NCBI GenBank assembly: GCA_004298155.1
Contig: SCRD01000003.1
Span: forward strand, 1 to 64,000
Reading direction: 5' to 3'
DNA: 64,000 nt
From: Acidobacteriota bacterium
Lineage (GTDB): Bacteria > Acidobacteriota > Terriglobia > UBA7540
A program made the translations under genes and the position numbers. Below, piece after piece: positions 21,537 through 51,840 of this stretch. Position 1 is the stretch's first letter, and each line of letters opens with the position of its first letter. The notes under the pieces were generated by a model that saw only the letters and a list, made by a program, of their open reading frames with translations, was not told the origin of the DNA and searched no databases.

Positions 21537-21555
21537 AATTCTGCTCCTGAAGGCC

Positions 21556-23301: not shown

Positions 23302-24354
23302 TCAGGGCACAGGGGCCTCCTCTGCCAGGTAAAGTGAACAGACGCACTTTTGACATACGGGATCTCTTGCCACATCGAGTTCCCGGCGAAACCTCAAGGC
23401 CTGCTCGCCGTTCAGGACGTCGCGCAAGCTCGCCTCGCGGATGTTGCCGATGGCACGGTGAAAAAAGCATGGACGGACCGTCCCATCCGCTTCGACTACA
23501 GCGGAGACCCAAGGTGCATTGCAGCGAGGGGATACATTCTGCGTCTGCCCGAGGCTTGCCCGATAATGCAAGACAATTCGGCGGAGTTTATCGGGGTTTT
23601 CAGAAATAAACCCCGATTCGATTTCCCTTTGGCACTCCCGTATCAACGCGTTGATCTCCACGTCGAGCCCTCCGACTTCCGTCGCATCCAGGGCGATGCT
23701 TTCCTGGCGCGCGGACGGCCAGCCGAGCGGGCGGTTAAAGGCTTCAGAAGTGGTATCGGCAGCCAGAAACGAAATCGAATTCAGTCCCAGCGCGTGGGCT
23801 GTGCGCACAGTGTCGCGAAGATGCCGGAAGTTCCTTTTTTGGACCGTGCAGCGGCCATGGACCGGCATCTGAGGGCTCAGGCGCCGGACTTCGCGGATTC
23901 CTGCGGAGAGGCGCGTGAACGCTCCGGGGACAGACCGAATAGCATCGTGCACGCCAGGCGGGCCGTCGATTGAGATGATCACGTCGTCCATCCACCGGGT
24001 CACGTTTCCGGCCTGCCTTTTAAGCAGCAAACCCGCCGTGAGAAGCGTCATGCGGATCCCTTCGTCCCGGCAAAGCTGGACGAGTGATTCGAGGTCCGAA
24101 TGCATCAACGGTTCGCCGCCGGAAAAGACAATCCATCTGACCCTGAGCTCGCGAAGACTCTCCAGGTGCGGCCTAAGGTCCTCAGCGGTGATTTCTCGCG
24201 CCTGCCGAATCTTCCAGATGTCGCACATCAGGCAGCGGCAATTGCAGCGGTTGTGCGGGAATAGGACCAGGATCGGCAGTTCGTGGATGCGATGATCGCG
24301 GACCTCATCTTCCAACGCGCTATTGGGAATCACCGCCTCAACGCGTTCACTCAT
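23302..24354 (-). CDS. Radical SAM/SPASM-type enzyme
   Basis: 350 residues. The radical SAM cluster motif is C37-x3-C41-x2-C44 (NRCNCRCLMCDIW), followed by FSGGEPLMH, the SAM-binding GGE. A SPASM-like C-terminal region has several Cys residues (SPRCNAPW, RPCFFH, DPVCQKCVCS) that would hold auxiliary Fe-S clusters. SPASM enzymes modify peptides, proteins or small molecules by radical chemistry. It overlaps the amidohydrolase by 4 bp and is the last gene of the long operon. No precursor peptide is next to it, so the substrate is unknown. Confidence 0.88.
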   Translation of the reverse strand: MSERVEAVIPNSALEDEVRDHRIHELPILVLFPHNRCNCRCLMCDIWKIRQAREITAEDLRPHLESLRELRVRWIVFSGGEPLMHSDLESLVQLCRDEGIRMTLLTAGLLLKRQAGNVTRWMDDVIISIDGPPGVHDAIRSVPGAFTRLSAGIREVRRLSPQMPVHGRCTVQKRNFRHLRDTVRTAHALGLNSISFLAADTTSEAFNRPLGWPSARQESIALDATEVGGLDVEINALIRECQREIESGFISENPDKLRRIVLHYRASLGQTQNVSPRCNAPWVSAVVEADGTVRPCFFHRAIGNIREASLRDVLNGEQALRFRRELDVARDPVCQKCVCSLYLAEEAPVP

Positions 24355-25631
24355 GCGCTCACCCGCTTTCCAGCCAGCCGCACATTTGTTCCCAGGTGTG
24401 CGTGAGGTTCGTTCAGCAATTGCCTTACCGGAGCCCGGACAAAGCAGGATGTCCCCTCGATATGGATTTCCTCTAAACCATCTAAGAGGGTAGGGGGGCA
24501 GCGGAGGGCCATCCTGGCCGAGACCAGGTGAGGTTTGCCGGAGACCATGACCATCTCGATGGCGTCAAGCCGCGTGCTGACCAGCAGGTCCGCAGGGCTT
24601 AAGTCCATCTGCTTCACCACGAGCAGGTCAGCATTCGCCCCCGGCTGCAACTTCCCCTCGCCGTTTTGAAGCCGCAGGACATCAGCCGCACGGCCTGTGA
24701 CCATGGAATAAATCTGCCTCGGGTCCACACCTTCATGGTGCGCCGCCCTGATTTCGTCGAGCAGATCTCCCTCAGCAGTGAGGGCCGAGTCGCTTCCTAG
24801 TGAAATGCGGTCCTGCCCGTCCAGAGCGGCCGCACCAAGCGTGGCTCCAAGGGTGAAGCGATTGGAAGTCGGGCACCACACCAGCGCCGCGCCGCGCTGG
24901 CGTCGAAGCTCATGCCCACGATCCGTCATTCCGACTCCGTGGACGATGACGGTCCGCGAGTCGAGCGCCCCGAGGCGGTCGAGCTCAAAGATTTCATCTC
25001 CACTCTGTTTGTCTGAGCCCTCCGCGAGATGAATGATGAATGGCGCCTCCGGCGGCGTTGACAGGAACGCCTCTTTCACGTTCTTTCCGAAGCGCAGCGA
25101 GTGGGCCCAGCCGTACTGCTTGACGACGCGGACGGGAAAATCAGCGCCGAAGACGGCTTCTTCGTACGCATTGTGATGGCAGACGGTGGTAACACCGGAT
25201 AGCAGATTCTTAAGTCCTCCCCACCACAGCCTCACCGGTTTGGGCACTGAAAGATGCTCGCGAAGGGGCGAACTCTCCGGGTGGAAGATATCGTCTGCCC
25301 ATTTTTCGAAATTAGGGTAAGGGCCACGGCCCAGTCTCGGGAAAAGATTGAATTCCAGATGATCGTGCGAATTGACAAGCCCAGGCAGAACCAGACATCC
25401 TTCCAGAGAAATTTCGGTGCAACCGCTTTTGGAACCTGAGTTTTCTCTGCCGTGCCCTTTTCCCAGCCGATCGATCAGTTGCGAGATGCGCCCGCCGGCA
25501 ATTCCCAGATCTGCCCGGACACTCGTCGAAGCATCGAGCGCTACCCACCCTGCCGAAAGCAGCAGAGAAGATGAATCATGCGAGCTCAGTTCGCGGTGAG
25601 GATGGCTTGAACTTTTGAGAGTGCACATCAT
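24351..25631 (-). CDS. Amidohydrolase-superfamily enzyme (deaminase/chlorohydrolase-like)
   Basis: 426 residues. The metal-binding HxH appears in PGLVNSHDHLEFN, with further likely ligands in IIHLAEGS, TVIVHGVGM and the final Asp in SLGSDSALTAEG. This set matches the SsnA/AtzC/cytosine-deaminase branch, which hydrolyses C-N bonds of purines, pyrimidines or guanidino-type compounds. It is flanked with 4-bp overlaps by a methyltransferase and a SPASM enzyme. In this context it could tailor a nucleoside- or amide-containing intermediate. The role in the pathway is inferred from the operon only. Confidence 0.82.
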   Translation of the reverse strand: MMCTLKSSSHPHRELSSHDSSSLLLSAGWVALDASTSVRADLGIAGGRISQLIDRLGKGHGRENSGSKSGCTEISLEGCLVLPGLVNSHDHLEFNLFPRLGRGPYPNFEKWADDIFHPESSPLREHLSVPKPVRLWWGGLKNLLSGVTTVCHHNAYEEAVFGADFPVRVVKQYGWAHSLRFGKNVKEAFLSTPPEAPFIIHLAEGSDKQSGDEIFELDRLGALDSRTVIVHGVGMTDRGHELRRQRGAALVWCPTSNRFTLGATLGAAALDGQDRISLGSDSALTAEGDLLDEIRAAHHEGVDPRQIYSMVTGRAADVLRLQNGEGKLQPGANADLLVVKQMDLSPADLLVSTRLDAIEMVMVSGKPHLVSARMALRCPPTLLDGLEEIHIEGTSCFVRAPVRQLLNEPHAHLGTNVRLAGKRVSA

Positions 25632-26383
25632 CTGTTGCCCGGCAGGTCAGTGCTGGCAAGCCTGAAGGAGCTGATAAAAATTGCCGGTCCGGCCTGTGAT
25701 TGCTCTAAAAGGCGCTCTTTACCGCATCTTCTGAAAATAGGCCTTTCTGCTTCACCAAAACTGGGGCAGATCATTTGGTCAAGCTCGAACCGCTGTTCCC
25801 GGAACGTCCGGCAGAGTTGATCAAGCGAGAACTTGAAATTAACGATTTCAACCACCTCTCCGTTGTAGCGAAAGGTGCGGCGCCAGCCTCTCTCCAAACC
25901 TGAAGGATGAAAGTCCGTCAGAATCAGGCGCCCCCCCTTTTTCAGGACGCGTGAAAGTTCACAGCTAAGAAGACTGAGGTCTGCCACATAACTTGCCGCG
26001 AAAGAGCAGATCGCCAGATCGGTAACGCCGGTTGCAACTGGAATGGCCGTGCAATCGGCGCGCAGGAGACTCTCCCGGAGCGCCTGTTTTCGCCGTGCCT
26101 GGCCGAGCATCTCGTGAGACAGATCGAACCCGACTCCGTGGCGTGCTCCCCGAGCCAGCAATAAGTTGAGCCACCGTCCCGTTCCGCACGCTATGTCCAG
26201 CACAAACGCCCCTTCGAGGCGTGGAAGCAGTGGGAGCAGTTCCCTTTCTTCCAACGCGAGGAGCGGGTTGGGATCGCTATCATAAGTTTGCGCCCACAGC
26301 GCGTAGGCGTCAGCGGGCGGGAGACAGCCGCCCGGCGGACTGATTTTCACGTCGGTTTCGATCGTCTCCTTTCTTCCCGGCAT
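25628..26383 (-). CDS. Class I SAM-dependent methyltransferase
   Basis: 251 residues from the ATG at 26383, chosen for an AGGGA 5 nt upstream and because the longer frame would run 160 bp into the preceding gene. Motif I is FVLDIACGTGRWLNLL, then VGFDLSHEML, ADCTAIPVATGVTDLAI and VLKKGGRLILTDFHP, the usual UbiE/Methyltransf_11 order. The stop overlaps the amidohydrolase start. Methyl acceptor unknown. Confidence 0.85.
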   Translation of the reverse strand: MPGRKETIETDVKISPPGGCLPPADAYALWAQTYDSDPNPLLALEERELLPLLPRLEGAFVLDIACGTGRWLNLLLARGARHGVGFDLSHEMLGQARRKQALRESLLRADCTAIPVATGVTDLAICSFAASYVADLSLLSCELSRVLKKGGRLILTDFHPSGLERGWRRTFRYNGEVVEIVNFKFSLDQLCRTFREQRFELDQMICPSFGEAERPIFRRCGKERLLEQSQAGPAIFISSFRLASTDLPGNR

Positions 26384-26391
26384 GATGTTCC

Positions 26392-27855
26392 CTAAAGGCT
26401 TTCTGCCTCCGGTTTTCGGAGATTGATCAGCCGCTGCGTTGCTCGCAGTTCGTAAGGATAAGAATAAAAACGCAGGCGGTACCGCCATGCGCTTAGAAAT
26501 CGCAGCAGACGCCGTCCCCAGTTCGGAAGCCGAATATCCTGCACCGTAGGCCATCGGGAACTTACCACCAGCCGGAAGTTGTCAATCCTGCGTTTGGTGG
26601 TGGGCTTCATCCAGGGTGTGGCAGGATCTTTCCGGATGGTGAAGTTATACCAGCGCTCGGTTGCCCACTCTTCCGGCGTGGACGGGAAGGCAATCTGGCC
26701 CTCGACGTCACCGTACATCCGTTCGCGCTGCGGGACCGGTGTGTAGTGATAAATGATAATTTCCGAAACGGGGTTTAACTGCTTGACCCTGCGGATGAAG
26801 CCAAGGCATTCGCGCGTGTCGCGTTCCGGGTCTTTTGGGTTGCCAATCACGAACGAGAATTCCGGAATAATGCCGAATTGGCGGATGCGCTGCGCGAGCT
26901 CAATTGTCTGCTCCGACTTCAGCTTCTTGTTCATATCTTTCAGGACCCAGTCGGATCCCGACTCGGCCCCAAAGAAAATCATGCGACAACCCGACCTGCG
27001 AATCGCATCAAACGTCGCATCCGAGTAACGGAGCATGATGTCGATTCGCGCTTCACACCACCAGCCGAGTTTGAGCGGCGCCAGGCGGTCGGCAAGCTCC
27101 CGGGCATGGTCTTCCCGCAGGAAAAAATTCATGTCATAAAACTGCACTGAGTCCACGTTGTATGTGCGCGTGAGATGGCGCAAAATGGCTTCCGTCCGCT
27201 CCGGTGATTCCATCTTCTCGATGGTTCCGTAGGCAGGAACTACCCCGCAAAAGCTGCAGTTGAACGGGCACCCGATGCTCGCATGGTGCGCTGCCGTTCT
27301 GCGACCGAAAAACGACGGGCGAATGTACTCTTTGACCGGAAGGCGGTGATAGGGATACCACGGAAAAGCATCCGGGCCTTTCATCCGCCGCTCGGGGTTG
27401 TGGTGATGGTTCCCGAAGTCATCCTTGTATGAAAGGCCCCGAATATCTTCCAGCGGCCGCTGGCCACGCAGTGCATCCAGCAATTCAAGGAGAGTTTCCT
27501 CGCCCTGGCCGCGAACGGCAAAATCAACGTAGTTTGCGTTCAAGGCTGCATTAGCGTAAATCGAAGGGAAATAGCCGCCCCAGACGATTGGGATGCGCGG
27601 AAACGCGTGGCGGGCCTCGCGACACGCCTCAACGGCCGGAGCCAACTGTGGGCCCGGCATCACTGTGACCGCCAGAAGATCGACGCGGTACCGGGCCAGA
27701 AGTTCCATCAAGGTCTGTAGAGGGTAAGGATCGAGGTTGCCGTCCACGATGGTGTATTCTTCGCGCCTTTCAAGGACGGCCGCGAGCGCCAGAATCGAAA
27801 GCGGAAATCGCCGGTTCTTCGGCTTCGTCGCGCGTGGATTATAGAAGACGATCAT
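26392..27855 (-). CDS. B12-binding-type radical SAM enzyme (paralogue 5 of the operon)
   Basis: 487 residues. The N-terminal Rossmann-like part (about 1-150) contains VDGNLDPYPLQTLMELL and WGGYFPSIYANAAL, matching the cobalamin-binding-like domain of BchE/HpnJ-type enzymes without a clear DxHxxG. The radical SAM cluster motif is CPFNCSFC, with FFGAESGS and EFSFVIGNP following. Members of this large class do methylations, ring closures and C-C bond formation, including on lipids. It lies between two methyltransferase genes with 4-bp and 8-bp junctions. The reaction is unknown. Confidence 0.88.
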   Translation of the reverse strand: MIVFYNPRATKPKNRRFPLSILALAAVLERREEYTIVDGNLDPYPLQTLMELLARYRVDLLAVTVMPGPQLAPAVEACREARHAFPRIPIVWGGYFPSIYANAALNANYVDFAVRGQGEETLLELLDALRGQRPLEDIRGLSYKDDFGNHHHNPERRMKGPDAFPWYPYHRLPVKEYIRPSFFGRRTAAHHASIGCPFNCSFCGVVPAYGTIEKMESPERTEAILRHLTRTYNVDSVQFYDMNFFLREDHARELADRLAPLKLGWWCEARIDIMLRYSDATFDAIRRSGCRMIFFGAESGSDWVLKDMNKKLKSEQTIELAQRIRQFGIIPEFSFVIGNPKDPERDTRECLGFIRRVKQLNPVSEIIIYHYTPVPQRERMYGDVEGQIAFPSTPEEWATERWYNFTIRKDPATPWMKPTTKRRIDNFRLVVSSRWPTVQDIRLPNWGRRLLRFLSAWRYRLRFYSYPYELRATQRLINLRKPEAESL

Positions 27856-28871
27856 GAGTTACCCAGCCTGGCCCAAAGAACGTAAAACCTGGCAGGCTCG
27901 CGCCGCCGCAGCAGGCGGGCTTTTAGCGGGCGCAGGGCCCACCTCGCGCCGTACCAGGGTTCAAACTGTTTCCATTCCAGGCCATGCTCGCGGGCGAGTT
28001 CATCGAGCGTGTCCGGCGTCAAAAATTCCTGGCCGCGGATGCTATCCGAAGGAAAGCCGTATTCGCTTTGGAATTTCAGGTGTTTTTCTTCGAGCATTTT
28101 TCGTCCGCTTTCCTCGTTCCGGTAAAAAGGTGAATCGATAATCAGCACGTGGCCGGGCCGCCGCAGGCACCGCAAAGTCTCCTGCAATGTCCGGGCATAG
28201 TTTTCCGAATAGTGGAAGGAAGCATTGAAGACCGCAACGTCAAATTGGGCGCGATCAAAAGGCAGCCGATCCATCTCTGCCTGGAACAAATCAAATGGCC
28301 GGGACAGGAAATCGTTGTAATGGTGGGCGGCACTGAGGCCATCGAGCGCATTGGTGAGCAAATCTACAGCGATGGGACGGTGCCCCCGAAGGGCGAGTCG
28401 ATAGCTCAACCAGCAGTTTCCGGCGCCGATATCCAATACGTCCAGGCCACCCTGGTAGCGGTACTCGAGCCATGGCAGGATGCGCTGATAAAAAAACCGG
28501 AAACTTCGCGACCGAATTTTCCACTGCCAGCCGTTGCGGCCGGTAACATCCCGGTAGGGCAATTCAAGATAGAAGTGTGCACCTGCTGACCCTCGTCCTT
28601 CACGGAGCCTGACCGTTTCATACTCGATGATGAACTGCTGAAAGCGTTCTTCGCGCGCCGGTGTAAGCGCCTTCCAGATCCTGCCTTCCTGGACAAACGT
28701 GAATCCGCAATAAGAACACAAAGGACCTGGCAGAATTCCATACGTGATCGTCATCGAAGGGTCCGAATGGCCGCAAACGGGGCAGCGAAGGAGTATCCGG
28801 TGCGCCGTTTCAGCCTCGACCGTGATGGATCCATCCAATGTTTCCGTCGGTTGCGCCGAGTTGCCTTTCAT
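27852..28871 (-). CDS. Methyltransferase with N-terminal zinc ribbon
   Basis: 339 residues. An N-terminal zinc ribbon (CPVCGHSD at about 34, CSYCGFTF at about 55) precedes a class I methyltransferase fold: VLDIGAGNCWLSYRLALRG, then PIAVDLLTNALDG, FDVAVFNASFHYSENY and HVLIIDSPF. The zinc ribbon suggests binding of a carrier or nucleic acid, or a purely structural role. The gene starts 2 bp from the end of the next upstream methyltransferase and overlaps the radical SAM gene by 4 bp. Confidence 0.82.
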   Translation of the reverse strand: MKGNSAQPTETLDGSITVEAETAHRILLRCPVCGHSDPSMTITYGILPGPLCSYCGFTFVQEGRIWKALTPAREERFQQFIIEYETVRLREGRGSAGAHFYLELPYRDVTGRNGWQWKIRSRSFRFFYQRILPWLEYRYQGGLDVLDIGAGNCWLSYRLALRGHRPIAVDLLTNALDGLSAAHHYNDFLSRPFDLFQAEMDRLPFDRAQFDVAVFNASFHYSENYARTLQETLRCLRRPGHVLIIDSPFYRNEESGRKMLEEKHLKFQSEYGFPSDSIRGQEFLTPDTLDELAREHGLEWKQFEPWYGARWALRPLKARLLRRREPARFYVLWARLGNS

Positions 28872-28873
28872 GT

Positions 28874-29692
28874 TCAGGTCCTCTCAAACGTTAGAAGCAT
28901 ATGGTCAGCCATCGCGCGAAACGCAGGACAGTTGCCAAGCCAGGGATCGATTTGGGAAGCAAGATGAAACGACTGCGGGTAACGAGTTGCCAGGAAATCG
29001 AGATAGGAAGGCGGGACGGTGATCCCCACACCTTTCCATCTCAACAGCCGGAAATGCGGGGCAAAAGCCTTCTTCAACTTTCGCACGGAATGGTACCAGA
29101 CGTTGGTTTTGGAGCGGGCGGAAAGTGCGGCCGAGCTTCCCTCCTGCGCAAACCGCCGCGTTGCCTTGCGGATATTCCCCCGCGAGAGATACCAGAAGGT
29201 TTCCCAGATGCAGAAACGACCGAACAGGCACAGAACCATACTGCTCGGTTCCTTCACCAGCTGTGCCAGGTCATCAGCTAAGAAAGAAAGGTCGGGAATG
29301 CAGTTAAGTCCGGAGAAGTTTGAAAGGATCCCATCAAAGGGTCCTTCGCTATGCAGAGTTTCGATCTGTTCATTGGCCAGGACTCTGAAATCAACAGTGG
29401 GTGAAATTACGGCGAGGCCCGCCCGCTGGCGCGCAAGCGCAATCATCCGAGGAGATGAATCGCACGCGGTCACATGGACTCCCTGGCTGGCCAGGTGCAA
29501 GGCGTCCACTCCAGTTCCACAGTTAATTTCAAGCACCCGCTGCCTGGCTGTGAAATTCCGGTCGACCTCTTTCCAGACCGCCTTGCGCTGCGCCCACCCG
29601 ATGGCTGAATCCGTAAAACTCGCATCATAGGTCTCAGCGATTTCGTCGAATGCGTTTGGCGCGGTCATTATTGTTCCGGAACGCAAAGTCAT
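28874..29692 (-). CDS. Class I SAM-dependent methyltransferase
   Basis: 272 residues. The pattern is IAETYDASFTDSAIG, motif I VLEINCGTGVDALHLASQG, VTACDSSPRMIALAR and FDGILSNFSGLNCI. AAGGAG is only 2 nt before the ATG at 29692, so an in-frame ATG 8 codons later (29668, MTAPNAFDE) may be the true start. It lies 6 bp after the previous radical SAM gene. Acceptor unknown; its position suggests methylation of the same product as the neighbouring enzymes. Confidence 0.82.
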   Translation of the reverse strand: MTLRSGTIMTAPNAFDEIAETYDASFTDSAIGWAQRKAVWKEVDRNFTARQRVLEINCGTGVDALHLASQGVHVTACDSSPRMIALARQRAGLAVISPTVDFRVLANEQIETLHSEGPFDGILSNFSGLNCIPDLSFLADDLAQLVKEPSSMVLCLFGRFCIWETFWYLSRGNIRKATRRFAQEGSSAALSARSKTNVWYHSVRKLKKAFAPHFRLLRWKGVGITVPPSYLDFLATRYPQSFHLASQIDPWLGNCPAFRAMADHMLLTFERT

Positions 29693-29698
29693 CGCTCC

Positions 29699-31105
29699 TT
29701 ACGCCTCGACCTCAGCGAATGAGATCTTCATTTCCTCGCGTGCCTTCTCGATTTGTTGTCGAAGAGCGAACAGCTCAGAAGGCGTGTCCATGGTGTCTGT
29801 GCCCGACATCCTCTGGACCTCAACTTCAGCTCGCAAGAGCTGGTTGACGCTCTGATAAAAACGACGGGAATGTCGCCCGCGGATCCTGAAATCGCGGTCG
29901 GACCCTTCCGCCCAAACCTCGAGCTCGGTTACACGGTCTGCCACTCTTTCGAAATAGGGAGTTCCACGAATCGGGTAGGCGACGGTGGTGAGAAAAACGT
30001 CAGGATTGCTCCGCTTGACATGATTAATGGTGGCTTCAATATCGGTCAACTCCTCGCCTTCATAGCCCCACATCAGGAACATGCCCGTCTGTATGCCATT
30101 GGCCTTGCACAACCGCACGACAGACTGCACCTGCTCCACTGAAACGCCCCGGCGCATCGAGTCCAGGACCCTCTGCGAACCGCTTTCCGAGCCGATCCAG
30201 ATGCGGAAACAGCCAAGCTCCGACAGAAGCGCCACGATCTGCGGATTCAGCCGGTCGGCGCGCGAGATACATTCGAAAGGAATCCTGAGACCGCGCCGCC
30301 TCATTTCCGCCGCATATTGGAACAGCCAGCCGTGATGAATGGTGAAAACATCGTCGGCCATCCAGATCATGTCCGGGCTGTAACGGCCGATAATCCATTC
30401 AAGTTCATCAACCACAGAAGAGGGTTTCCGCCGGCGGTGCGTGCGGCCATACACGGCATGGCTGCACCACTGGCACTCATAGGGGCAGCCGCGCGCGGTG
30501 ATCAGAGACACCGAGCCCGTGCCATGATTGTCACGCCAGGCCTTGAGATAGCGCTCGATCTCCACTGACTCACGGCTGGGCCAGGGTTGATCGTCAATGT
30601 TCGACATCTGCGCCCGGGGCGGCGTACGGTGGACCCTGCCGTTATCGCCTCGAAATGCGATGCCGTTGACCCGGCTCAGAAGATGGAACGAACCGCTCCG
30701 CAGAGCCGGAACCAGCTCTTCCAGGGTGACCTCGCCTTCGCCGATGACCACCACATCCGCGCCGGCCGCGAGATACTCATCAATGTAAGAAGCGGGCTCA
30801 GGCCCCCCAACTATGGTCTTCCAGCCGGCTTTTTTTGCCGCCTGGAGAATCCGGACCACGCTGGGCCGCGTCATGAGATTTGCGTAGACACCCAGGATGG
30901 CAGGCTCGCCGCTCTGTAGTACTTCCAGCAAATCTCTGCGGGAGGCAAAAGTGGTGTCAAAGACTTCGACGTCGAAGTTTCGTGAGCGCAGGTGCGAAGC
31001 AAGGTAAAGAATGCCCAGAGGAACGTAGGGCTTCATGATCGCCTGCTCTTTGGCGTCCTCCTCCAGGAAGTAGCCGTGAGTTAGAAGCAAATCCATGAGA
31101 CCCAT
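29699..31105 (-). CDS. B12-binding-type radical SAM enzyme (paralogue 4)
   Basis: 468 residues. The B12-like N-terminal domain (PLGILYLASHLRSRNFDVEVFD, IVGGPEPASYIDEYLAAGAD, VVIGEGEVTLEEL) is followed by the cluster motif CPYECQWC, then IWMADDVFTIH and IWIGSESGS. Its N-terminus (LLLTHGYFL... KPYVPLG) closely resembles the next upstream gene (LLTHPYHLYYDRKQ... QPYPPLG), so the two form a tandem paralogue pair. Reaction unknown. Confidence 0.88.
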   Translation of the reverse strand: MGLMDLLLTHGYFLEEDAKEQAIMKPYVPLGILYLASHLRSRNFDVEVFDTTFASRRDLLEVLQSGEPAILGVYANLMTRPSVVRILQAAKKAGWKTIVGGPEPASYIDEYLAAGADVVVIGEGEVTLEELVPALRSGSFHLLSRVNGIAFRGDNGRVHRTPPRAQMSNIDDQPWPSRESVEIERYLKAWRDNHGTGSVSLITARGCPYECQWCSHAVYGRTHRRRKPSSVVDELEWIIGRYSPDMIWMADDVFTIHHGWLFQYAAEMRRRGLRIPFECISRADRLNPQIVALLSELGCFRIWIGSESGSQRVLDSMRRGVSVEQVQSVVRLCKANGIQTGMFLMWGYEGEELTDIEATINHVKRSNPDVFLTTVAYPIRGTPYFERVADRVTELEVWAEGSDRDFRIRGRHSRRFYQSVNQLLRAEVEVQRMSGTDTMDTPSELFALRQQIEKAREEMKISFAEVEA

Positions 31106-31180
31106 CCGTCAAACAGCGCTAAACCTTATCTTGCAAGTATCCAAAGAACCCCGCCCACCAACCGCTGCACGTGCCGCCGG

Positions 31181-32683
31181 CTAGTCGCATCCCATGGCGG
31201 AGCAAGCCAGAACAGGCAACAGCGTCGCGTCGGAATTCCTGCAGGCTGGTTCCAATTGCTCGACTCTATTCCATAGTTCCGTGATCTTACCGGTGCCCAC
31301 GCAGGCCGCGGGCGCGGAACGGTCTCGAAGGCTGAACCGCCATGCTTCCTGCGAACTCCAGGACTCCACCTCAGCGTGGAGCGCGTCACGGAGCGCGCGG
31401 TAGAAATCGCTTGTATAGGCCCCCTTGAACATCATTGCGAGATCATCGCTATCCACCCAATTGCTCTTGGCGCCCAGTTCATCGCGCACGCGCTGGTAAA
31501 ATTTTGTTCCGGGCAAGGGATAGGAAACTGAAACGCCGATGTCATCCGGCCGAGCTTTGCGGACCATTTGAATGGTTTTCTGAATATCGTTCCAAGTCTC
31601 GCCGGGATAACCGAACTGAAGGAAGAAGCAGGCACGAATTCCGTGTTGTCTTAAATTAGCACGGGCCTTCAGGACCTGCTCGACGCGGATCCCCTTATCC
31701 ATGGCATCCAGGATTTTCTGCGACCCGGATTCCACTCCCATCCACACTTCCGCGCAGCCACAGAGGGCAAGAGCTGCGACAGTATCCTCACTGCGCATCA
31801 GGTCTGCTCTTGCCTGTATCTTGAAAGGGACGGCGGCATTCCGGCTTCTGACATGGCTGGCAAAATTCTGAATCCAGCGGCTGTTGATTCCGAAAAGATC
31901 ATCCGCAAACCAGAGATGATCTGCTCCATACCTCTCGCGGAGCTGCCGGATTTCTTCTGCCACAGTCTCAGGAGTCCGGGCATGGAAGGAGTCACCGTAT
32001 ATCGGTTTCGCACACCAGTTGCAACGATACGGACAACCACGGCTTGATACCAGGTTGAGAGAAAAGAAGCCATGCGCCTCCTGCCAGACCTGCCGGTAGA
32101 GGCCCAAGTCCACCAGATCGCGCGCCGGAAAAGGGAGCTGATCCAGGTCCCGCATCAGCGGCCTGCGGGCCGACCGAATCACCCGCCCGTTGCCGTTCGG
32201 AGAGTACGCGACGCCGGGAATACTCACAGGGTCAAGCTTCGAATCTCTAACCAGGGACCCGACGACCTCGAGCAACGTCCACTCAGCCTCGCCTTCGAGG
32301 ACATAATCCGCGCCCCTTGCCAGATACTCAGCACAGTGGTCTGAAGAATCCGATCCGTGAACGACGACCCTGGCTCCAGCCATACGGGCGGCATCGATCA
32401 TCTCAAAAGCAACTTCTCTCATGCGGCTCAGACACATTTTGGAAAGAAAGTTGAAATTGTCTTCGTAAATCACCGCGACCTTTGGATGCTGCTTCCGCAG
32501 CGCCTCTGGAAACCCCTCCGCAGGATCATTGAGCATGCTGTCAAACAAAGCGACCGAGAAGCCTTTCTGCCTGAGCAGAGCGGCGGCGTAGAGCGTGCCC
32601 AGAGGAGGGTACGGCTGCATCTTGCGGATTTGCTTGCGGTCGTAATAAAGGTGATAGGGGTGGGTCAGCAGAACGTCAGCCAA
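31181..32683 (-). CDS. B12-binding-type radical SAM enzyme (paralogue 3)
   Basis: 500 residues with a TTG start at 32683 behind AAGGAG (6-nt spacing). The B12-like domain has YLARGADYVLEGEAEWTLLE, and the cluster motif is CPYRCNWC followed by LWFADDLFGIN and VWMGVESGS. It pairs with paralogue 4 by sequence and order. It lies 75 bp upstream of that gene, and the gap shows no gene. Reaction unknown. Confidence 0.88.
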   Translation of the reverse strand: MADVLLTHPYHLYYDRKQIRKMQPYPPLGTLYAAALLRQKGFSVALFDSMLNDPAEGFPEALRKQHPKVAVIYEDNFNFLSKMCLSRMREVAFEMIDAARMAGARVVVHGSDSSDHCAEYLARGADYVLEGEAEWTLLEVVGSLVRDSKLDPVSIPGVAYSPNGNGRVIRSARRPLMRDLDQLPFPARDLVDLGLYRQVWQEAHGFFSLNLVSSRGCPYRCNWCAKPIYGDSFHARTPETVAEEIRQLRERYGADHLWFADDLFGINSRWIQNFASHVRSRNAAVPFKIQARADLMRSEDTVAALALCGCAEVWMGVESGSQKILDAMDKGIRVEQVLKARANLRQHGIRACFFLQFGYPGETWNDIQKTIQMVRKARPDDIGVSVSYPLPGTKFYQRVRDELGAKSNWVDSDDLAMMFKGAYTSDFYRALRDALHAEVESWSSQEAWRFSLRDRSAPAACVGTGKITELWNRVEQLEPACRNSDATLLPVLACSAMGCD

Positions 32684-32738
32684 AGCATTCTCCTTCCCGC
32701 AAACGATTGTCTGCGACCGATACGCGATACAGGCGCCA

Positions 32739-34235
32739 TCAGCAGACCTCCTGCATTCCGTGCCCGAGCGATTGCCCTGTCAGCAGCGACCGGCGCGTCA
32801 CCAGCCGCTCGGTGGTTCTGGCAACCCAGAGTTCCCACGGGAAACCATAGTGATGGTTCTGCAGCCGCCACCGCAAAGGAGCGCCCAACGCCTTTCGGAT
32901 TCTTCCCTGCATCCAGGGAACCCTCGCCGCCGTCCGGCGGATCTGGTTGTTGAGGAGAAAGTACTCAAGCATTCGTTTCAGGCGGTGAAGTTCCTCACCC
33001 TGCAGCCAGGGCAGGAGATTGCTGCCAAGGTCCACGTCCGCCCACTCTTCGAGTGATCTCGGCTCGTGCACCCCTTTGGCCCGGAGTTCAGGCCAGATCG
33101 GAATTCCGGGATAGGGCGTAAAAATATTTGGAGAAAAACTGACGTTCGAATATCTCCGGGCGATATCGCTCATAATGCGGAAGGTTTCCAGCCGGTCGGC
33201 TTCCGTTTCTCCCGGATATCCGAGTATGAGATTGAACGTCACTCGAATGCCGGCCAGTTCCGACTTGCGGGCGGTTTCGTACATCTCGTCAATCCTCTGA
33301 TGCTTCTTGTTCATCAGGGCGAGAACTTCCATTGACGCAGATTCCGTCCCAAAGCCCATGTGCGTCACGCCCGACTTGCCCAGCATCCGAACCTCATCAT
33401 CGCTCATGCGGCATAAAAGGTCCGTTGAAGCCTGGAACGTCCAGCGAAACCGGATTTTGGATTCGAGAAAACCCCTTGCGATCTCGATCGCTCGCCTAAT
33501 GTTCACCGGAAAGTTTGAGTCAAGGAATGCAACCTCGCTCAGGCGGTAACGGGACACCAGTTCGGTGACTTCCTGGACCACGCGGCCGGCACTATAGGCG
33601 TTGAAGCGCCGCTTGTAGAAGACCTGGTCGGTGCAATAGTTGCACGCATAGGGGCAACCCACGCTTGACGCATAGGGCAGCTTGCGAACGCCCGTTATCT
33701 TTTCGTACGCATCCAGGTTGCCCAAATCGAATGCAGGGGTCGGCAGGTCGTTGACATTTTCAACCGGACGCTCGGGATTATGATGAACGCCGTCGGCGAG
33801 CTTCAGAGAAACCCCCCGGACGTTGTCGAGCGGCTTCCCTTCGCTCAGCAGGCGGGCAATTTCAACGATTGTTCGTTCTCCCTGCGCCCTTACGACAACA
33901 TCAATGAAGTCTTCGCCGAGGGTTTGTGCCGGCAGGAGGCTGGGGTGCCATCCTCCGAAAATGATGGGAAGCCCCGGGCGAAGCTGCCGGACCAGCCGCG
34001 CGACCTCGACAGCAGAGCGGATCATCTGGCCAGTGAGCAGGGAAATTCCAAGACAGACGGCATCTTTGATCTCCTGTGCCACAATGCGTTTGAAGTCGGT
34101 CTTGATCGACCCGTCCACAATCGAGACCTGGAACCCGTCCTCAAGCAATGGCGACGCCAGGCTGAGAAGGCTCAACGGTGGCCCGAGGGGCTTGCCTGCG
34201 TAGGGCGGATAAAAAAGGACCACTTTGTTACTCAT
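32739..34235 (-). CDS. B12-binding-type radical SAM enzyme (paralogue 2)
   Basis: 498 residues. The B12-like domain contains VSIVDGSIKTDFKRIVAQE, CLGISLLTGQMIRSAVEVA, IFGGWHPSLLPAQTL and VVVRAQGERTIVE. The cluster motif is CPYACNYC, followed by VAFLDSNFPVN and MGFGTESAS. It overlaps paralogue 1 by 4 bp and shares its GGWHPSLL and LPFD-like motifs, so it is a tandem duplicate. Methylase, cyclase and lipid-coupling enzymes all have this layout. Confidence 0.88.
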   Translation of the reverse strand: MSNKVVLFYPPYAGKPLGPPLSLLSLASPLLEDGFQVSIVDGSIKTDFKRIVAQEIKDAVCLGISLLTGQMIRSAVEVARLVRQLRPGLPIIFGGWHPSLLPAQTLGEDFIDVVVRAQGERTIVEIARLLSEGKPLDNVRGVSLKLADGVHHNPERPVENVNDLPTPAFDLGNLDAYEKITGVRKLPYASSVGCPYACNYCTDQVFYKRRFNAYSAGRVVQEVTELVSRYRLSEVAFLDSNFPVNIRRAIEIARGFLESKIRFRWTFQASTDLLCRMSDDEVRMLGKSGVTHMGFGTESASMEVLALMNKKHQRIDEMYETARKSELAGIRVTFNLILGYPGETEADRLETFRIMSDIARRYSNVSFSPNIFTPYPGIPIWPELRAKGVHEPRSLEEWADVDLGSNLLPWLQGEELHRLKRMLEYFLLNNQIRRTAARVPWMQGRIRKALGAPLRWRLQNHHYGFPWELWVARTTERLVTRRSLLTGQSLGHGMQEVC

Positions 34236-35743
34236 GGACAGTTCGCTCCCACAGCAGGCTCCAGTTGCTTTGCATCAACCTTGGGTTTGGCAACGGCGAC
34301 AAACCTTTTGATCTTCCGATTGAGCCAGAGCTCAAAGGGAAGCGCGTAAAAGTCGTGGTCCAGACGCCAGCGCGCCGGGCAGGCCAGGCTGTGCTGGAAG
34401 GCTCGAATGGCTGTTCCGGCGTCCAATTTCGCGATGGGAATGCGGTCGAAGGCGATGCGAAGGTAGTCACGCATCACCTGGACGCGCCGGTGGGACCTCC
34501 CTTTCAGCCATGGGAGAATGGTGTACCGAGGGAAATAGTCAGCCCACCCTTCGAAGGAATCTGGCACTACGATGCCAAGCTCCTTGACGTGATTCATGAT
34601 GGGCGAGCCCGGATAAGGCGTAAAAATATTGGTCCAGAATTCGGCGCCCGGGAAGCGCCGGCAGACGTCCATTATGAAGCGAATGGTTTGCCTCCGTTCC
34701 ACGGCGCCTTCTCCCGGATAACCAAAAATAATATTGAAGCTGGGTCGAATTCCGGCATCCAGGCAGCGCTCAGCGGATTGATAGATCGAGTCGAAATCCT
34801 GGAAGGTCTTGTTCATCAACTTCAGGATCTTGGGCGATGCGGAATCCACTCCCTGGCAAATCTGATGGAGACCGGCCCGCCCCAGCAGGCGCAACTCATC
34901 CGTGCTCAGGCGCGCTGTCAGGTTTGTCGTGGCCTGGATACTCCAGCGGAACCTGGAACCGGCTCGAATGAGCCCCTCGGCGATTTTGAGTGCCCGCTCC
35001 AGGTCAACAAGGAAGTTGTCATCGACAATCCAGAGCATTTCCAGGCGATAGCGGACAGAGAGGTCAAAAGTTTCTTCGACAACTTGTTCTGCGGGCAGGG
35101 CGTTCCACTGGCGGCCGTAGACCCCCGCATTGGTGCAATACGAGCAGTTGAACGGACAAGCCAGACTGGAAGTGTACATAGCCCAACGCCTGCCACAGAG
35201 CCGTTCATAAGCATCGAAGTCGGCAAGCTCATAGGCCTTGGCAGGCATCTCCGCAAGCTTCTGGAGGGGTCTTGGCGGGTTCAGAATCAGCCTGCCATCC
35301 TGCTTGAAACCCACACCTTCGACGCCTTCAAGCGAGGCGTTATTCTCGATGCGCCTGACCACTTCGAGCATCGCGGCTTCACCCTGGCCGCTAACCACAA
35401 TGTCTACAAATTCTGCTTCAAGCGTCTGCATGGCGAGTAATGAAGGATGCCAGCCGCCCAGAATGATAGGGAAGTCTTTATTCCAGGATTTCACGGCCCG
35501 TCCGATCTCCGCCGTTTCACGAATCATCGGGCCAGTAACCAGCGATATTCCAAGACACAAGGCGTCCTTGACCTCATCAAGGACCCGCTGCTTTAAGTTG
35601 GGCGTGATGGTGGAGTCTATCAAGACAACCTGATATCCAGCCCTGAGCAGAGGAGTTGAAACCGCCAGGATGCCAAGCGGCGCTGTCGCCTCGCTGCTGG
35701 CAAAGGCCGGAAAGAAGAATACGATTTTCTTAGAACCCCTCAC
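34232..35743 (-). CDS. B12-binding-type radical SAM enzyme (paralogue 1)
   Basis: 503 residues with a GTG start behind AGAGG. The B12-like domain has VVLIDSTITPNLKQRVLDE, CLGISLVTGPMIRETAEIG and ILGGWHPSLLAMQTL. The cluster motif is CPFNCSYC, then LWIVDDNFLVD, ICQGVDSAS and FNIIFGYPGEG. It begins the run of enzymes and lies 17 bp after a possible 36-codon frame. It is paired with paralogue 2. Confidence 0.88.
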   Translation of the reverse strand: MRGSKKIVFFFPAFASSEATAPLGILAVSTPLLRAGYQVVLIDSTITPNLKQRVLDEVKDALCLGISLVTGPMIRETAEIGRAVKSWNKDFPIILGGWHPSLLAMQTLEAEFVDIVVSGQGEAAMLEVVRRIENNASLEGVEGVGFKQDGRLILNPPRPLQKLAEMPAKAYELADFDAYERLCGRRWAMYTSSLACPFNCSYCTNAGVYGRQWNALPAEQVVEETFDLSVRYRLEMLWIVDDNFLVDLERALKIAEGLIRAGSRFRWSIQATTNLTARLSTDELRLLGRAGLHQICQGVDSASPKILKLMNKTFQDFDSIYQSAERCLDAGIRPSFNIIFGYPGEGAVERRQTIRFIMDVCRRFPGAEFWTNIFTPYPGSPIMNHVKELGIVVPDSFEGWADYFPRYTILPWLKGRSHRRVQVMRDYLRIAFDRIPIAKLDAGTAIRAFQHSLACPARWRLDHDFYALPFELWLNRKIKRFVAVAKPKVDAKQLEPAVGANCP

Positions 35744-35760
35744 TCTGGCCTCTCCTATCC

Positions 35761-35871
35761 TTATGAAAATTCCTGTTCATGCCAAATATGCTCGAAGAAT
35801 AACAATGGCCGGTATGTGCGCGTGTCATGGCGCAATCCCTTTCCTGCAAAAAAATTGTCAAAACGCCGCAT
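35761..35871 (-). CDS. Possible 36-residue peptide gene between ligase and radical SAM genes
   Basis: An ATG at 35871 has AAGGAG only 2 nt upstream, overlaps the end of the preceding gene, and reads 36 codons to TAA at 35761. The peptide begins MRRFDNFFAGKGLRHD and ends HIWHEQEFS, with aromatic and basic residues. It fills most of the only sizeable gap before the four radical SAM genes, the place where a modified-peptide precursor could be. It has no recognisable leader or core pattern, and the ribosome spacing is short, so it may be chance. Confidence 0.25.
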   Translation of the reverse strand: MRRFDNFFAGKGLRHDTRTYRPLLFFEHIWHEQEFS

Positions 35872-37171
35872 GGCTCCTTGAACCAACAGCTTCAGAATCG
35901 GATGGCAAGACATTCCGTGTTGCAGAAGGTATCAAGGGCGCGAGAACTGCGAAGCTGAGTAAGATCAAACCGAGGGAGTGCCCATAGGTGTATTCGAAAA
36001 GGCCAGCTAATAGATAACCAATGAGGGCAAACATCGCGGTCCGCGACACGAATATTTCTTCTCTGCCTTGAGCTGCTTTTGAGGCCTTCAGGAGATCGCG
36101 GAACAGCATGGCGACGAACAGCAGAGCAGCAAGCGCAACGGGTATTCCAAACTCTGCAGCCAGTTCGACTGCATTATTGTGCAGATGGCCGTGGTAGGCC
36201 GGCACAGGGTCGCGGGATGAAAGATACGACATGTAGAGCTTGTCGATGCGTCCCGGACCAACTCCGGTGAGCGGATGTTCCTTTATCATATCCCACCCGA
36301 CCTTCAGCATTTCAATGCGTTCCAGGTTCGAATAGTAGGAAGGCTTGAACGATTGGGTTACGCGCTCGCGGATCGGGAGTGGCGCGAGGAAGAATAGAGT
36401 TAAAGGCAGAAGCGGGAGCGCCCAAATCCATCTGGAACGCCTCCGCGTCAACTCGATGCCGATGAGCGCGAGCAACGTGGCCCACACCATCCGCGTCAGG
36501 CTCACAAGGATCGCGGCCCCATTAATGACCGCGACTGGCCACCAGCGGCGCCTCTCCTCGGGATAGACCGACCAGAAGGAGAGTAAACCGGCCACCACCA
36601 GGATCTCCACCGTCCCGTATACCATCCAGTGATTGAGCAAGCCGCCGGAGCGGAGATAGAGGCCCACGTCGCCTCCGGCAGCGAGCTCGCGACGATAGTA
36701 AAAAAGGCGCGAAATAAAATCCCCAACCAGAACCAACGAACTCATGCTTGCGCCCAGGAATAGCCCCTGCCAGACAATGAGACGATCAGTAGCCTGATTG
36801 AGAGCCGGCAAGACCACAAAAAGCGCGCCGATCAGGAGCAGGTGGCGAATTTCACCCCAGCCAAGGGAGGGTTCAGGAGATAGACACCAGACAACGATTT
36901 CGAGGGCTGCCCACAGCATCCAAAAGTGAAAGACGCGCGGAAGCACAAGCCGGTCTCGGCCGCGCGCCAGCCGCACAATGCGGGCTAGTAATGCCAGGGT
37001 GAGGAAAAACTCGGAAACCGCAATGGAAATCGGAACCGCCCAAAGCCCCAGAATCAGCAGCGAACAGTCAACCGGCGTGCGTACCAATACCTTCCAGAAT
37101 CGGGTGTGCTCATCAGGCGTGACTGCCCGCTGCAAGGAGCTCGGGTGTGAAAGTGAGGCCAAGCCTTTCAA
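35858..37171 (-). CDS. O-antigen ligase/Wzy-like polytopic membrane protein
   Basis: 437 residues with about 11 hydrophobic segments and a long periplasmic loop (about 290-350) carrying GVGPGRIDKLYMSYL and GHLHNNAVELAAEFG, the HN...E-G signature of the Wzy_C family. These enzymes polymerise or ligate lipid-linked glycans on the outer face of the inner membrane. The start is TTG at 37171 with GAGG 5 nt upstream; that GAGG overlaps the stop of the cytochrome-barrel gene, so the two are coupled. A second ligase-like gene lies in the exopolysaccharide cluster on the other strand. Confidence 0.82.
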   Translation of the reverse strand: MKGLASLSHPSSLQRAVTPDEHTRFWKVLVRTPVDCSLLILGLWAVPISIAVSEFFLTLALLARIVRLARGRDRLVLPRVFHFWMLWAALEIVVWCLSPEPSLGWGEIRHLLLIGALFVVLPALNQATDRLIVWQGLFLGASMSSLVLVGDFISRLFYYRRELAAGGDVGLYLRSGGLLNHWMVYGTVEILVVAGLLSFWSVYPEERRRWWPVAVINGAAILVSLTRMVWATLLALIGIELTRRRSRWIWALPLLPLTLFFLAPLPIRERVTQSFKPSYYSNLERIEMLKVGWDMIKEHPLTGVGPGRIDKLYMSYLSSRDPVPAYHGHLHNNAVELAAEFGIPVALAALLFVAMLFRDLLKASKAAQGREEIFVSRTAMFALIGYLLAGLFEYTYGHSLGLILLSFAVLAPLIPSATRNVLPSDSEAVGSRSHAAF

Positions 37172-37178
37172 GCGAACC

Positions 37179-38651
37179 TCAATACATCTGCCGCATCAGA
37201 TCGAACCCGATGAAGAGTCCGCTCGGAGTGTCGGCCGAGGGATCGCCCAGGAACGTTGCGCGCGTTCCGGCCCGCTGTGACACGACAGTCCCGGGACTAT
37301 TCGAAAAACCGAGGGTAAACGCGTGACGCCACAAACGCTTCTGAATACCAAAGGCGTACGCCGGGCGGTGAATCCCAAGTTCCGGACCGTTTACAAGCGT
37401 AGGTATAATCTCTGCGATCACGGCTACGGTTGGGCGAATGTCGAAAGCACCGCCCACGCCCAGTGAAAAGGTATTGAATCCTGGAAGGGCCGGTGGACCG
37501 ACCGCCAGGTTGGGGGAGACCACCAGCCGGCGGTTCTGCAATGACAGTGTGGGGACAAAGTACATCTGGGCGCCCTTAAACAGGCTGCGCGAAAAGATGC
37601 CTTCGAAACTAGTGGTGAAATTCCTGGAAAAATTGTCCTGCCCGTCCACCGAGACGCGAAACGTCGCATTCAACGGATAGTCAATGTGTTCGTCCAGGAG
37701 ATGGTAGGAAGCCGTCAACTCGACGGGCCGCCCGATGATGCTGGGGGAGCGATAAGCGCCGACAGACAATTTGTCGGTGATGCCATACCGTAGGCCAAAA
37801 GATGAAACCGAAAATCCGTCGAGACCCAGCAAGACAGCGCCACGGGCCTTTCCGCTGAACGCCGGGTCAAAGACGAAGCGATGCGTAAAGTTGACGTAAA
37901 ACCCGTGCCGGTCAAGCTGCCGCCCCGTGGGAAGGCTGTAAAGATAATCATCGGCGGGAGTATAGACTTTCGCGTTTTCCTCAGCTTCAGAGGCGGCTGC
38001 GCGTTGCGGGGCAGGGTCCCCTGATCCAAGAGATTTGACGAATGAACCGGCGGCAGCAATTTCATTATCCGACAGCTTGCCCTCCCAGGCGGGCATGAGG
38101 GTCCCCTTCTTTCCGTGCCGGATGGTGTTGAGGATGACATCTTTCGTCAGGCTGGCTTGAACTTTGGGACTTGTGAAGTCAGGAGTCCCCGTCGCGGCGA
38201 TCCCCTTTCCATCCATCCCATGACACACTGAACAGTTCTGTATAAAGGTCTTCGCTCCGAGTTGCACATTTTCAGGAGTTGTTTCAGTCGAGGCCGTTTG
38301 CTGGAGATGGGTTTCTGCCGGACGGCTCAAGGGATCGAATTCCTGGACCGTATGGTTTACAAGGTCCACCACGTATTTCTTTCCATTGCGATGGACTATG
38401 ACGGAGGTGGTCGATCCGTCGATAAATTGAACTCCAACGGCATCGACGGCCGCGGAATCTGAGCCCGGTGCGGTTACGGTGACGTAGGGCGCCATATTCG
38501 AGGATGGATGCATCTTGTCAGCATGAAGCAACGAGTGTGCCGGGAAGATGAGCCCGCTTGCTATGAGGAAAACGGCCACGGGCCTATACAAGGTACCGAT
38601 CTGATGTTGAACCCGTCCTATGCAATTTGCGATTTCATTCTGTTTTTGCAT
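37179..38651 (-). CDS. Cytochrome c domain fused to an outer-membrane beta-barrel
   Basis: 490 residues from the ATG at 38651 (GAGG 4-5 nt upstream). After a signal peptide (about 22-45) comes a short domain (about 55-105). A single heme site CSVCH follows (about 140) with LMPAWEGKLSDNEI giving the Met ligand. From about residue 230 amphipathic strands form a barrel (YVNFTHRFVFDPAF... FSLGVGGAFDI... FTLGFSNS), ending in FIGFDLMRQMY. The barrel resembles the DUF5777-type family. The fusion would place a heme at the outer membrane, possibly for moving electrons across it. It is the first gene of the long minus-strand operon, facing the two-component system. Confidence 0.75.
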   Translation of the reverse strand: MQKQNEIANCIGRVQHQIGTLYRPVAVFLIASGLIFPAHSLLHADKMHPSSNMAPYVTVTAPGSDSAAVDAVGVQFIDGSTTSVIVHRNGKKYVVDLVNHTVQEFDPLSRPAETHLQQTASTETTPENVQLGAKTFIQNCSVCHGMDGKGIAATGTPDFTSPKVQASLTKDVILNTIRHGKKGTLMPAWEGKLSDNEIAAAGSFVKSLGSGDPAPQRAAASEAEENAKVYTPADDYLYSLPTGRQLDRHGFYVNFTHRFVFDPAFSGKARGAVLLGLDGFSVSSFGLRYGITDKLSVGAYRSPSIIGRPVELTASYHLLDEHIDYPLNATFRVSVDGQDNFSRNFTTSFEGIFSRSLFKGAQMYFVPTLSLQNRRLVVSPNLAVGPPALPGFNTFSLGVGGAFDIRPTVAVIAEIIPTLVNGPELGIHRPAYAFGIQKRLWRHAFTLGFSNSPGTVVSQRAGTRATFLGDPSADTPSGLFIGFDLMRQMY

Positions 38652-38856
38652 GTATCCTCTCCTCATCTCTCTGCTCTTTAAGGGGTATCACGCTTAACAA
38701 ACAGGGTCGTCAGGCAGGTGTAGTGAGTTTGTAAAGGTTGTGTTAGTCTTTTTGGAGACGCAGCGGGCGATTCGGCCGATCGAATCCATGGGAGTATTCC
38801 TCTGTGTTTGAAGGGTTCTCGAGAAGCTCAAATCTGGAGAATTCGTCAAAAATCTT
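38652..38856. promoter_or_regulatory. Divergent promoter region
   Basis: About 205 bp between the minus-strand biosynthetic operon and the plus-strand response regulator, which starts the other half of the locus. It is AT-rich in parts (AGTGAGTTTGTAAAGGTTGT). No exact operator repeat was found. As the only divergent gap between the two large operons, it is the likely site for their control, perhaps by the adjacent OmpR-type regulator. Confidence 0.4.
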
Positions 38857-41354: not shown

Positions 41355-41557
41355 CACCTCTCCGACAACATTGCGATAGGCGCCAGACGGCTTATCCTTC
41401 GATTCCAAATTTTTACAAATTCACCACAGTCGCCTGACACATTCCAGGTTATCGGAGTGGTAGGTTTGGTCTCGGAAGAAATCGAGGGAGTTCCTTGGGG
41501 CCAGGCGGGCGAGGGCTAAGCTGAAACAAAATTGACCGAATTGATGGGACTGGCGGA
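41355..41557. other. Intergenic region before the exopolysaccharide operon
   Basis: About 200 bp, AT-rich in the middle, with no gene. It separates the two-component system from the first polysaccharide gene and probably carries that operon's promoter. No clear -24/-12 sigma-54 site was seen. Confidence 0.4.
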
Positions 41558-51820: not shown

Positions 51821-51840
51821 AGCCTGGTTATGTTTCCGGT

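Follow-up and report, generated by a model that had tools for sequence, protein, structure and literature searches.

The window analyzed here, which comprises positions 1 to 64,000 of the forward strand of contig SCRD01000003.1 from the Acidobacteriota bacterium assembly GCA_004298155.1, carries on its minus strand an operon of twelve genes (23302-38666) that is rich in radical S-adenosylmethionine (SAM) enzymes. These genes are referred to as A to L in the order of their coordinates. Our open reading frame (ORF) calling and Pfam scans bore out both the twelve genes and the domains that an initial annotation, made from the DNA alone, had assigned to them:

Gene A, 23302..24354, minus strand: radical SAM/SPASM protein (Pfam Radical_SAM and SPASM; motif CNCRCLMC)
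Gene B, 24351..25631, minus strand: amidohydrolase of the COG0402 deaminase clade (Pfam Amidohydro_1), in relatives often fused to C
Gene C, 25628..26383, minus strand: class I SAM methyltransferase (Methyltransf_11 and Methyltransf_25; longest ORF to 26554)
Gene D, 26392..27855, minus strand: B12-binding radical SAM protein (PF02310 and PF04055), the most conserved member of the operon
Gene E, 27852..28871, minus strand: methyltransferase with an N-terminal Cys4 zinc-ribbon-like segment (Pfam; sequence inspection)
Gene F, 28874..29692, minus strand: methyltransferase (Pfam)
Gene G, 29699..31105, minus strand: B12-binding radical SAM protein (Pfam; motif check)
Gene H, 31181..32683, minus strand: B12-binding radical SAM protein (Pfam), the sole enzyme of this type recognized in minimal variants of the cluster
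Gene I, 32739..34235, minus strand: B12-binding radical SAM protein (Pfam; motif check), missing from some loci
Gene J, 34232..35743, minus strand: B12-binding radical SAM protein (Pfam; motif check)
Gene K, 35858..37171, minus strand: membrane protein of the Wzy_C (O-antigen ligase/polymerase) family (PF04932, 61 bits)
Gene L, 37179..38666, minus strand: c-type cytochrome fused to a DUF5777 outer-membrane barrel (PF13442 and PF19089)

The tight packing described for this operon is real, as neighboring genes overlap by 4 bp at four junctions and several gaps are shorter than 20 bp. Six of the 40 PF04055 matches in the 5.2-Mb genome and five of its 13 matches to the B12-binding domain fall inside the operon; the hypergeometric chance of finding at least six radical SAM proteins in twelve genes is 3e-10 if about 4500 genes are assumed. 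A profile match to CobS in the same genome is consistent with late cobalamin assembly in the carrier. In its longest ORF, C shares 163 bp with D, and the start lies later in several relatives, so that the true start of C is probably near 26383. A possible 36-codon frame that had been noted within the operon, and that lies between K and J, did not withstand comparison: it is not conserved, being disrupted in the sister locus from the same genus, but the surrounding TTGACA-containing DNA is kept, so that this region looks like an internal promoter and not like a gene.

The CxxxCxxC motif is intact in the SPASM protein A and in all five B12-type radical SAM proteins (D, G, H, I, and J), each of which combines a PF02310 domain with a PF04055 core, the B12 domain of H scoring slightly below the Pfam threshold (30.3 vs 32.1 bits). 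The identity is 41% between I and J and 36% between G and H, which indicates that part of this set is the product of duplication; D shares 25-28% identity with the other four. None of the operon enzymes reached a curated NCBIfam equivalog cut-off. The best scores within the operon were 135 bits for BchE (cut-off 481), 125 bits for HpnJ (cut-off 578), 115 bits for the ladderane-type model TIGR04072 (cut-off 360), and 127 bits for ApyD (cut-off 750), a B12-type radical SAM enzyme acting on ribosomally synthesized and post-translationally modified peptides (RiPPs); the sub-threshold matches to HpnJ and to the ladderane-type model include those of G and H. Gene A gave weak NCBIfam matches to PTO1314, ScmE, and BlsE, all of them far under the cut-off. 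Judged by sequence, the closest B12-type relatives with solved structures are AprD4, the recent radical SAM entry 9ccb, OxsB, TokK, and CysS.

While the twelve core genes stand as initially annotated, the functional unit is larger than had been noted, and it extends to a downstream pair of genes, y2 and y1 (20796-23160), and to a divergently transcribed plus-strand operon that reaches position 52986:

y1, 20796..21536, minus strand: secreted cupredoxin with a C-terminal CarboxypepD_reg-like domain (type-1 copper ligands)
y2, 21556..23160, minus strand: coiled coil followed by a predicted 16-stranded, DcaP-like porin (AlphaFold2 and Foldseek)
Gene M, 38857..39534, plus strand: PhoB/OmpR-family response regulator (Pfam; PhoB model 219.2 bits vs cut-off 296.2)
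Gene N, 39603..41354, plus strand: membrane sensor histidine kinase (HAMP, HisKA, HATPase)
Gene O, 41558..43588, plus strand: tandem HprK-related kinase with two P-loops (PF07475)
Gene P, 43585..44961, plus strand: NTP_transf_5 nucleotidyltransferase-fold protein (PF14907, 133.6 bits)
Gene Q, 44958..46349, plus strand: undecaprenyl-phosphate glucose phosphotransferase (TIGR03023, 438.6 bits vs cut-off 410.75)
Gene R, 46374..47651, plus strand: Wzz-type chain-length determinant
Gene S, 47668..49116, plus strand: Wzx flippase (PF01943)
Gene T, 49086..50609, plus strand: Wzy_C polymerase (PF04932)
Gene U, 50606..51820, plus strand: GT4-family glycosyltransferase
Gene V, 51754..52986, plus strand: GT4-family glycosyltransferase

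Q is the only scanned protein that exceeds an NCBIfam equivalog cut-off, and the genes for Wzx, Wzy_C, Wzz, and the two GT4 enzymes all exceed their Pfam cut-offs. M falls below the PhoB equivalog cut-off and so does not classify as the phosphate regulator PhoB itself. O is a tandem fusion with the P-loops GESGAGKST and GVPGSGKTT, and its matches to HprK_rel_A/B and ScmC lie below cut-off; its relatives possess one or two separate, shorter HprK genes, and in Edaphobacter a short protein adjoining HprK resembles the middle part of O by eye and has no family match. The type-1 copper ligands of y1 (H107, C143, H146, and M149) are invariant in seven homologues. The AlphaFold2 model of y2, a low-confidence one (mean predicted local distance difference test score, pLDDT, 55), contains 16 strands, and its top Foldseek match in the PDB is DcaP (6eus; E 2e-14). 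Genes for phosphoglucose isomerase and glucose-6-phosphate dehydrogenase (53515-56680) directly follow the polysaccharide operon and are kept in the sister genome. On the other side of the unit, a frame for an ArsR-like regulator and a methyltransferase gene (Methyltransf_31) at 18538-19736 adjoin a diheme cytochrome c, and an IS110/IS116-family transposase gene (11341-12453) lies about 8 kb before y1.

Comparison of divergent promoters yielded an array of TGT repeats at 11-bp spacing. TGT repeats spaced in this manner are the layout of PhoB-type boxes. In the window, such direct repeats are found upstream of the PhoB-family regulator M and of its presumed targets:

Putative PhoB-type operator box 1, 38709..38735, plus strand: GTCAGGCAGGTGTAGTGAGTTTGTAAA, in the divergent L/M promoter
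Putative PhoB-type operator box 2, 41412..41438, minus strand: GTCAGGCGACTGTGGTGAATTTGTAAA, upstream of O

A 27-bp pattern derived from these two sites matches, at zero mismatch, only the two sites themselves in the whole 5.2-Mb genome, with 0.02 matches expected in the window and none found with the reversed-pattern control. A copy with one mismatch (G000:C23:113192) is situated inside an ORF near RND efflux genes, and we took it as a chance occurrence. The looser array TGT-N8-TGT-N8-TGTAA has 23 matches in the 2.46 Mb of cluster DNA and one after shuffling. This count is descriptive, since certain sites were already known when the pattern was drawn up and there are duplicates among the records; sites such as those in G299, G427, G062, and L083 played no part in defining the pattern. 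Where genes could be placed, the matches fall at the promoters of J, HprK, or O, and similar boxes mark the sister clusters. From this arrangement we infer that both operons form one regulon that would be switched by M/N via the putative boxes.

The conservation of gene order, chosen beforehand as a test on which the initial proposal of one multi-step pathway could have failed, was indeed found in relatives. Of 39 genomes from the same family, 14 (counting that of the window) have D. Most of these 14 retain the order J-(I)-H-G-F-E-D-C-B-A; in variants, I or B is missing or the operon is split. D is 65-91% identical in 12 relatives. The same order recurs across families in dozens of Acidobacteriota contigs, among them those of the cultured strains Edaphobacter modestus DSM 18101, E. 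aggregans DSM 19364, and Terriglobus albidus DSM 26559. An alignment search of named genomes with D returned 289 encoding contigs, the best 80 of which are all from Acidobacteriota by taxon name and include the cultured Terriglobus albidus, Edaphobacter lichenicola, E. modestus, E. aggregans, Granulicella mallensis, Silvibacterium bohemicum, and KBS strains. Among these 80 loci, many of which are cut short by contig edges, flanks of up to 10 kb around D showed C (75 loci), G (69), F (66), H (61), A (60), and E, J, and B (58 each). Beyond the Acidobacteriota, our searches reached plasmids and the best 80 contigs of the D search; among the plasmid matches listed, identity to D was 23-27% only. 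A genome-collection search with the window's B protein gave no match. In a sample of 396 Acidobacteriota genomes, we found D in 35 (E<=1e-60) and B in 28 (E<=1e-40), with D present in 23 of the 28 B-positive and 12 of the 368 B-negative genomes (Fisher p 6e-24, phylogeny not corrected). The pairwise distance matrices of the operon genes correlate at 0.56-0.91, which fits co-inheritance and is no proof of co-function. Collectively, the order kept across families, the parallel divergence, and the lack of any member that reaches the cut-off of a characterized radical SAM family favor one multi-step pathway, and the search against curated radical SAM models grouped none of the enzymes with a known family at cut-off.

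In most of the 36-60 kb Acidobacteriaceae regions, an HprK-related kinase, NTP_transf_5, an SLBB-like export protein, Wzz, and glycosyltransferases are encoded near the radical SAM operon, mostly together with a small cupredoxin, a cytochrome c, the M/N regulators, and y2/y1. In clusters of another family, the radical SAM genes are linked to HprK, NTP_transf_5, SLBB export, Wzz, glycosyltransferases, a sugar transferase, M/N, and y2/y1; near the operons of G299 and G409, genes of the wider unit were not recognized. Many of the relatives are metagenome assemblies cut by contig ends. A minimal version of the cluster (G108, G189, and G416) contains F, H, E, and B, with D, G, I, J, and A not recognized, and also holds NTP_transf_5, HprK, a UDPGT-type glycosyltransferase, polysaccharide genes, and, between F and H, a stand-alone gene for GTP cyclohydrolase II. 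Two E. lichenicola strains and one Bryobacterales contig likewise encode this enzyme close to the cluster, and stand-alone copies inside or beside the cluster occur in several lineages (L190:11341-11988, L103:17591-18202); it was not found in most loci, the window included. Redox genes beside or within the operon of relatives encode a multiheme cytochrome, a RoxA-like cytochrome, and a cytochrome P450 (L119:14128-15213, L062:1777-3414, L106:14323-15282).

The B protein has the residues of a COG0402-type zinc deaminase (HxH, HxxE, H, and D), and its catalytic residues H89 and H91 of the HxH motif, H201xxE204, H231, and D281 are invariant in 21 sequences. Its predicted model is a confident one (pLDDT 89), and the top structural neighbors found by Foldseek are adenosine-type deaminases of Pseudomonas and Xanthomonas acting on methylthioadenosine (MTA) and S-adenosylhomocysteine (SAH), one of them with bound methylthio-coformycin. 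The modeled fold permits two roles, the clearance of 5'-deoxyadenosine and SAH formed by the nine SAM enzymes of the operon, or the deamination of a purine- or pyrimidine-type intermediate. C is fused to B in about 22 loci and E to D in one, an indication that the fused partners act together.

Taken together, these comparisons show a conserved, jointly regulated gene set in which an uncharacterized radical SAM, methyltransferase, and deaminase cassette is coupled to genes for polysaccharide assembly, for a two-component system, and for redox proteins of the envelope. The radical SAM operon, the HprK-related kinase, NTP_transf_5, M/N, y2/y1, and the genes for polysaccharide assembly and export travel together across several genera and have a common operator box. 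Our favored explanation, to which we assign a little less than an even chance, is that the two divergent operons constitute one regulon for an exported, chemically unusual polysaccharide with a multiply methylated, phospho-linked substituent. The link of the cassette to the polysaccharide genes is well supported; the chemistry of the product we infer, and these soil Acidobacteriota probably equip their surface coat with an unusual and heavily modified component. The export or envelope attachment suggested in the initial annotation thus gains strength from the co-regulated Wzx/Wzy-type operon, which had been left outside that finding.

In such a pathway, H, G, D, and I/J would add methyl groups to, or form C-C bonds at, unactivated carbons of a cytoplasmic precursor, which the SAM methyltransferases E, F, and C would cap and the SPASM enzyme A might further oxidize or decarboxylate. 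The zinc deaminase B would either deaminate a purine- or pyrimidine-type heteroaromatic moiety in the precursor or remove adenosyl by-products (5'-deoxyadenosine and SAH) that would be inhibitory to the nine SAM-using enzymes. O would phosphorylate the precursor or its carrier, and P could transfer a sugar to that phosphate, in the way that the homologues of both act on phosphoglycosylated lasso peptides. On undecaprenyl phosphate, Q would start a repeat unit to be extended by U and V, flipped by S, and polymerized by T, with R setting the chain length. K may then join the product to the polysaccharide or the envelope, y2, y1, and the cytochrome L would act on or with the product outside the inner membrane, and M/N would turn on both operons together.

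Several observations weigh against this explanation. No enzyme of the set has a characterized close relative, and substrate and product are therefore guesses. The correlations between the gene trees do not distinguish co-function from shared vertical descent, and in some lineages the wider polysaccharide set is located 10-25 kb away or is unseen at a contig end. In the Acidobacteriota sample, 38 of the 55 y2-positive genomes are without D; since y2/y1 and M/N also occur in D-less genomes, they may serve a second purpose or represent an independent module. Finally, an ordinary polysaccharide does not need cupredoxins and cytochromes. These redox proteins motivate a bolder variant, which we regard as a long shot: the cassette might build a hypermethylated, GTP-derived heteroaromatic group that is phospho-linked to the exported polysaccharide, giving the cell a redox-active or copper-binding matrix, displayed covalently and working alongside the cupredoxin, the c-type cytochromes, and the porin.

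The strongest rival is a diffusible metabolite, possibly a GTP-derived pyrimidine or pteridine or a nucleoside-like redox-active or metal-binding compound, with the polysaccharide genes as functionally separate neighbors. B would then deaminate the base, the methyltransferases and B12-type radical SAM enzymes would decorate it, and the cupredoxin, the cytochromes, and the porin would be its partners. This proposal draws on the GTP cyclohydrolase II gene in the minimal clusters and beside several others, on the COG0402 affiliation of B, on the recurrence of cytochrome P450, cupredoxin, and RoxA-like and multiheme cytochromes beside the operon, and on the weak resemblance of A to the cytosylglucuronate decarboxylase BlsE. 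However, most loci appear to do without GTP cyclohydrolase II, a dedicated small-molecule exporter was not recognized, and the polysaccharide genes have the operator in common with the cassette and travel with it; we consider a small molecule rather unlikely.

Less likely still is a ribosomal peptide that the radical SAM enzymes would mature and to which HprK and NTP_transf_5 would add a phospho-sugar in the manner of pseudomycoidin, a lasso peptide that an HprK-like kinase and a nucleotidyltransferase phosphorylate and then glycosylate (PMC8498205). Enzymes of the types encoded by O and P do work on lasso peptides (PMC8498205), the sub-threshold matches include models of B12-type radical SAM RiPP enzymes such as ApyD, and the short Edaphobacter protein beside HprK could be viewed as a candidate. 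Against a peptide speaks that this short protein has no family match, that no conserved short ORF, and hence no precursor gene of a RiPP cluster, was found in or beside the operon across about 100 loci, and that a lasso protease/cyclase and a peptidase-ABC exporter were not recognized among the annotated proteins. Nothing but cupredoxins, regulators, and translations of the operator box came out of our search for small conserved ORFs, and with the 36-codon frame broken, a short precursor peptide was rejected; a conserved 29-codon frame upstream of HprK in Edaphobacter proved to be the TGT-repeat operator and not a peptide gene. The least probable of the rivals is a modified or cross-linked membrane lipid, an option raised in the initial annotation that now loses ground. 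Lipid-active members do exist among the B12-type radical SAM enzymes, and G and H resemble HpnJ and the ladderane-type enzyme, but all matches to lipid models, TIGR04072 included, are far under cut-off, and acyl-chain, fatty-acid, ether-lipid, or hopanoid genes were not recognized among the annotated cluster genes. With D in 35 of 396 genomes, its distribution is too patchy for a core membrane lipid, which is an unlikely product and was rejected on gene content and patchiness.

If the polysaccharide explanation is true, the use of five B12-dependent radical SAM enzymes for one polysaccharide-linked pathway would take carbon methylation from antibiotics and lipids to the bacterial surface coat. 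The occurrence of the cluster in cultured Edaphobacter, Terriglobus, Granulicella, and Silvibacterium strains renders this question directly testable, and the minimal variants, in which H, E, F, and B are accompanied by HprK, NTP_transf_5, and GTP cyclohydrolase II, hint at the order of the steps and at what the starting substrate may be. Within the literature collection that we searched, we found no paper naming cobalamin-dependent radical SAM enzymes together with Acidobacteria, and nothing on point regarding the cassette, SynChlorMet, or links between radical SAM enzymes and polysaccharides.

Parts of the locus can be compared with known systems. With BchE, HpnJ, and ladderane-type enzymes, whose models are among the best sub-threshold ones for D, G, H, I, and J, the five proteins have in common a B12-binding domain followed by a radical SAM core; they differ in scoring at most 135 bits against cut-offs of 360-578 and in being set in a polysaccharide cluster. 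B has the same zinc-deaminase residues as the MTA/SAH deaminases (4dyk, 4gbd, 4f0r, TM0936), its top Foldseek and profile matches, whereas it is about 20% identical to them and is often fused to a methyltransferase. The SynChlorMet cassette, as defined by the Scm models of NCBIfam, likewise combines a SPASM radical SAM enzyme with an HprK-related protein. A matches ScmE over most of its length and O matches part of ScmC, but the scores (81.5 bits vs cut-off 400, and 35.9 vs 125) place neither protein in that cassette, and the B12-type radical SAM set and the polysaccharide genes are extra here. Clusters for phosphoglycosylated lasso peptides (paeninodin, pseudomycoidin) also unite an HPr-kinase homologue and a nucleotidyltransferase (PMC8498205), whereas the window has a two-P-loop tandem kinase and five B12-type radical SAM enzymes, with no precursor peptide or lasso protease/cyclase recognized. 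Wzx/Wzy-dependent exopolysaccharide clusters contain the same undecaprenyl-phosphate glucose phosphotransferase, Wzz, Wzx, Wzy, and GT4 enzymes, together with the SLBB-like export protein and Wzi that are seen in relatives; what sets the present locus apart from them is the addition, within one putative regulon, of ten radical SAM, methyltransferase, and deaminase genes, the HprK/NTP_transf_5 pair, a cupredoxin, cytochromes, and a PhoB-type two-component regulator.

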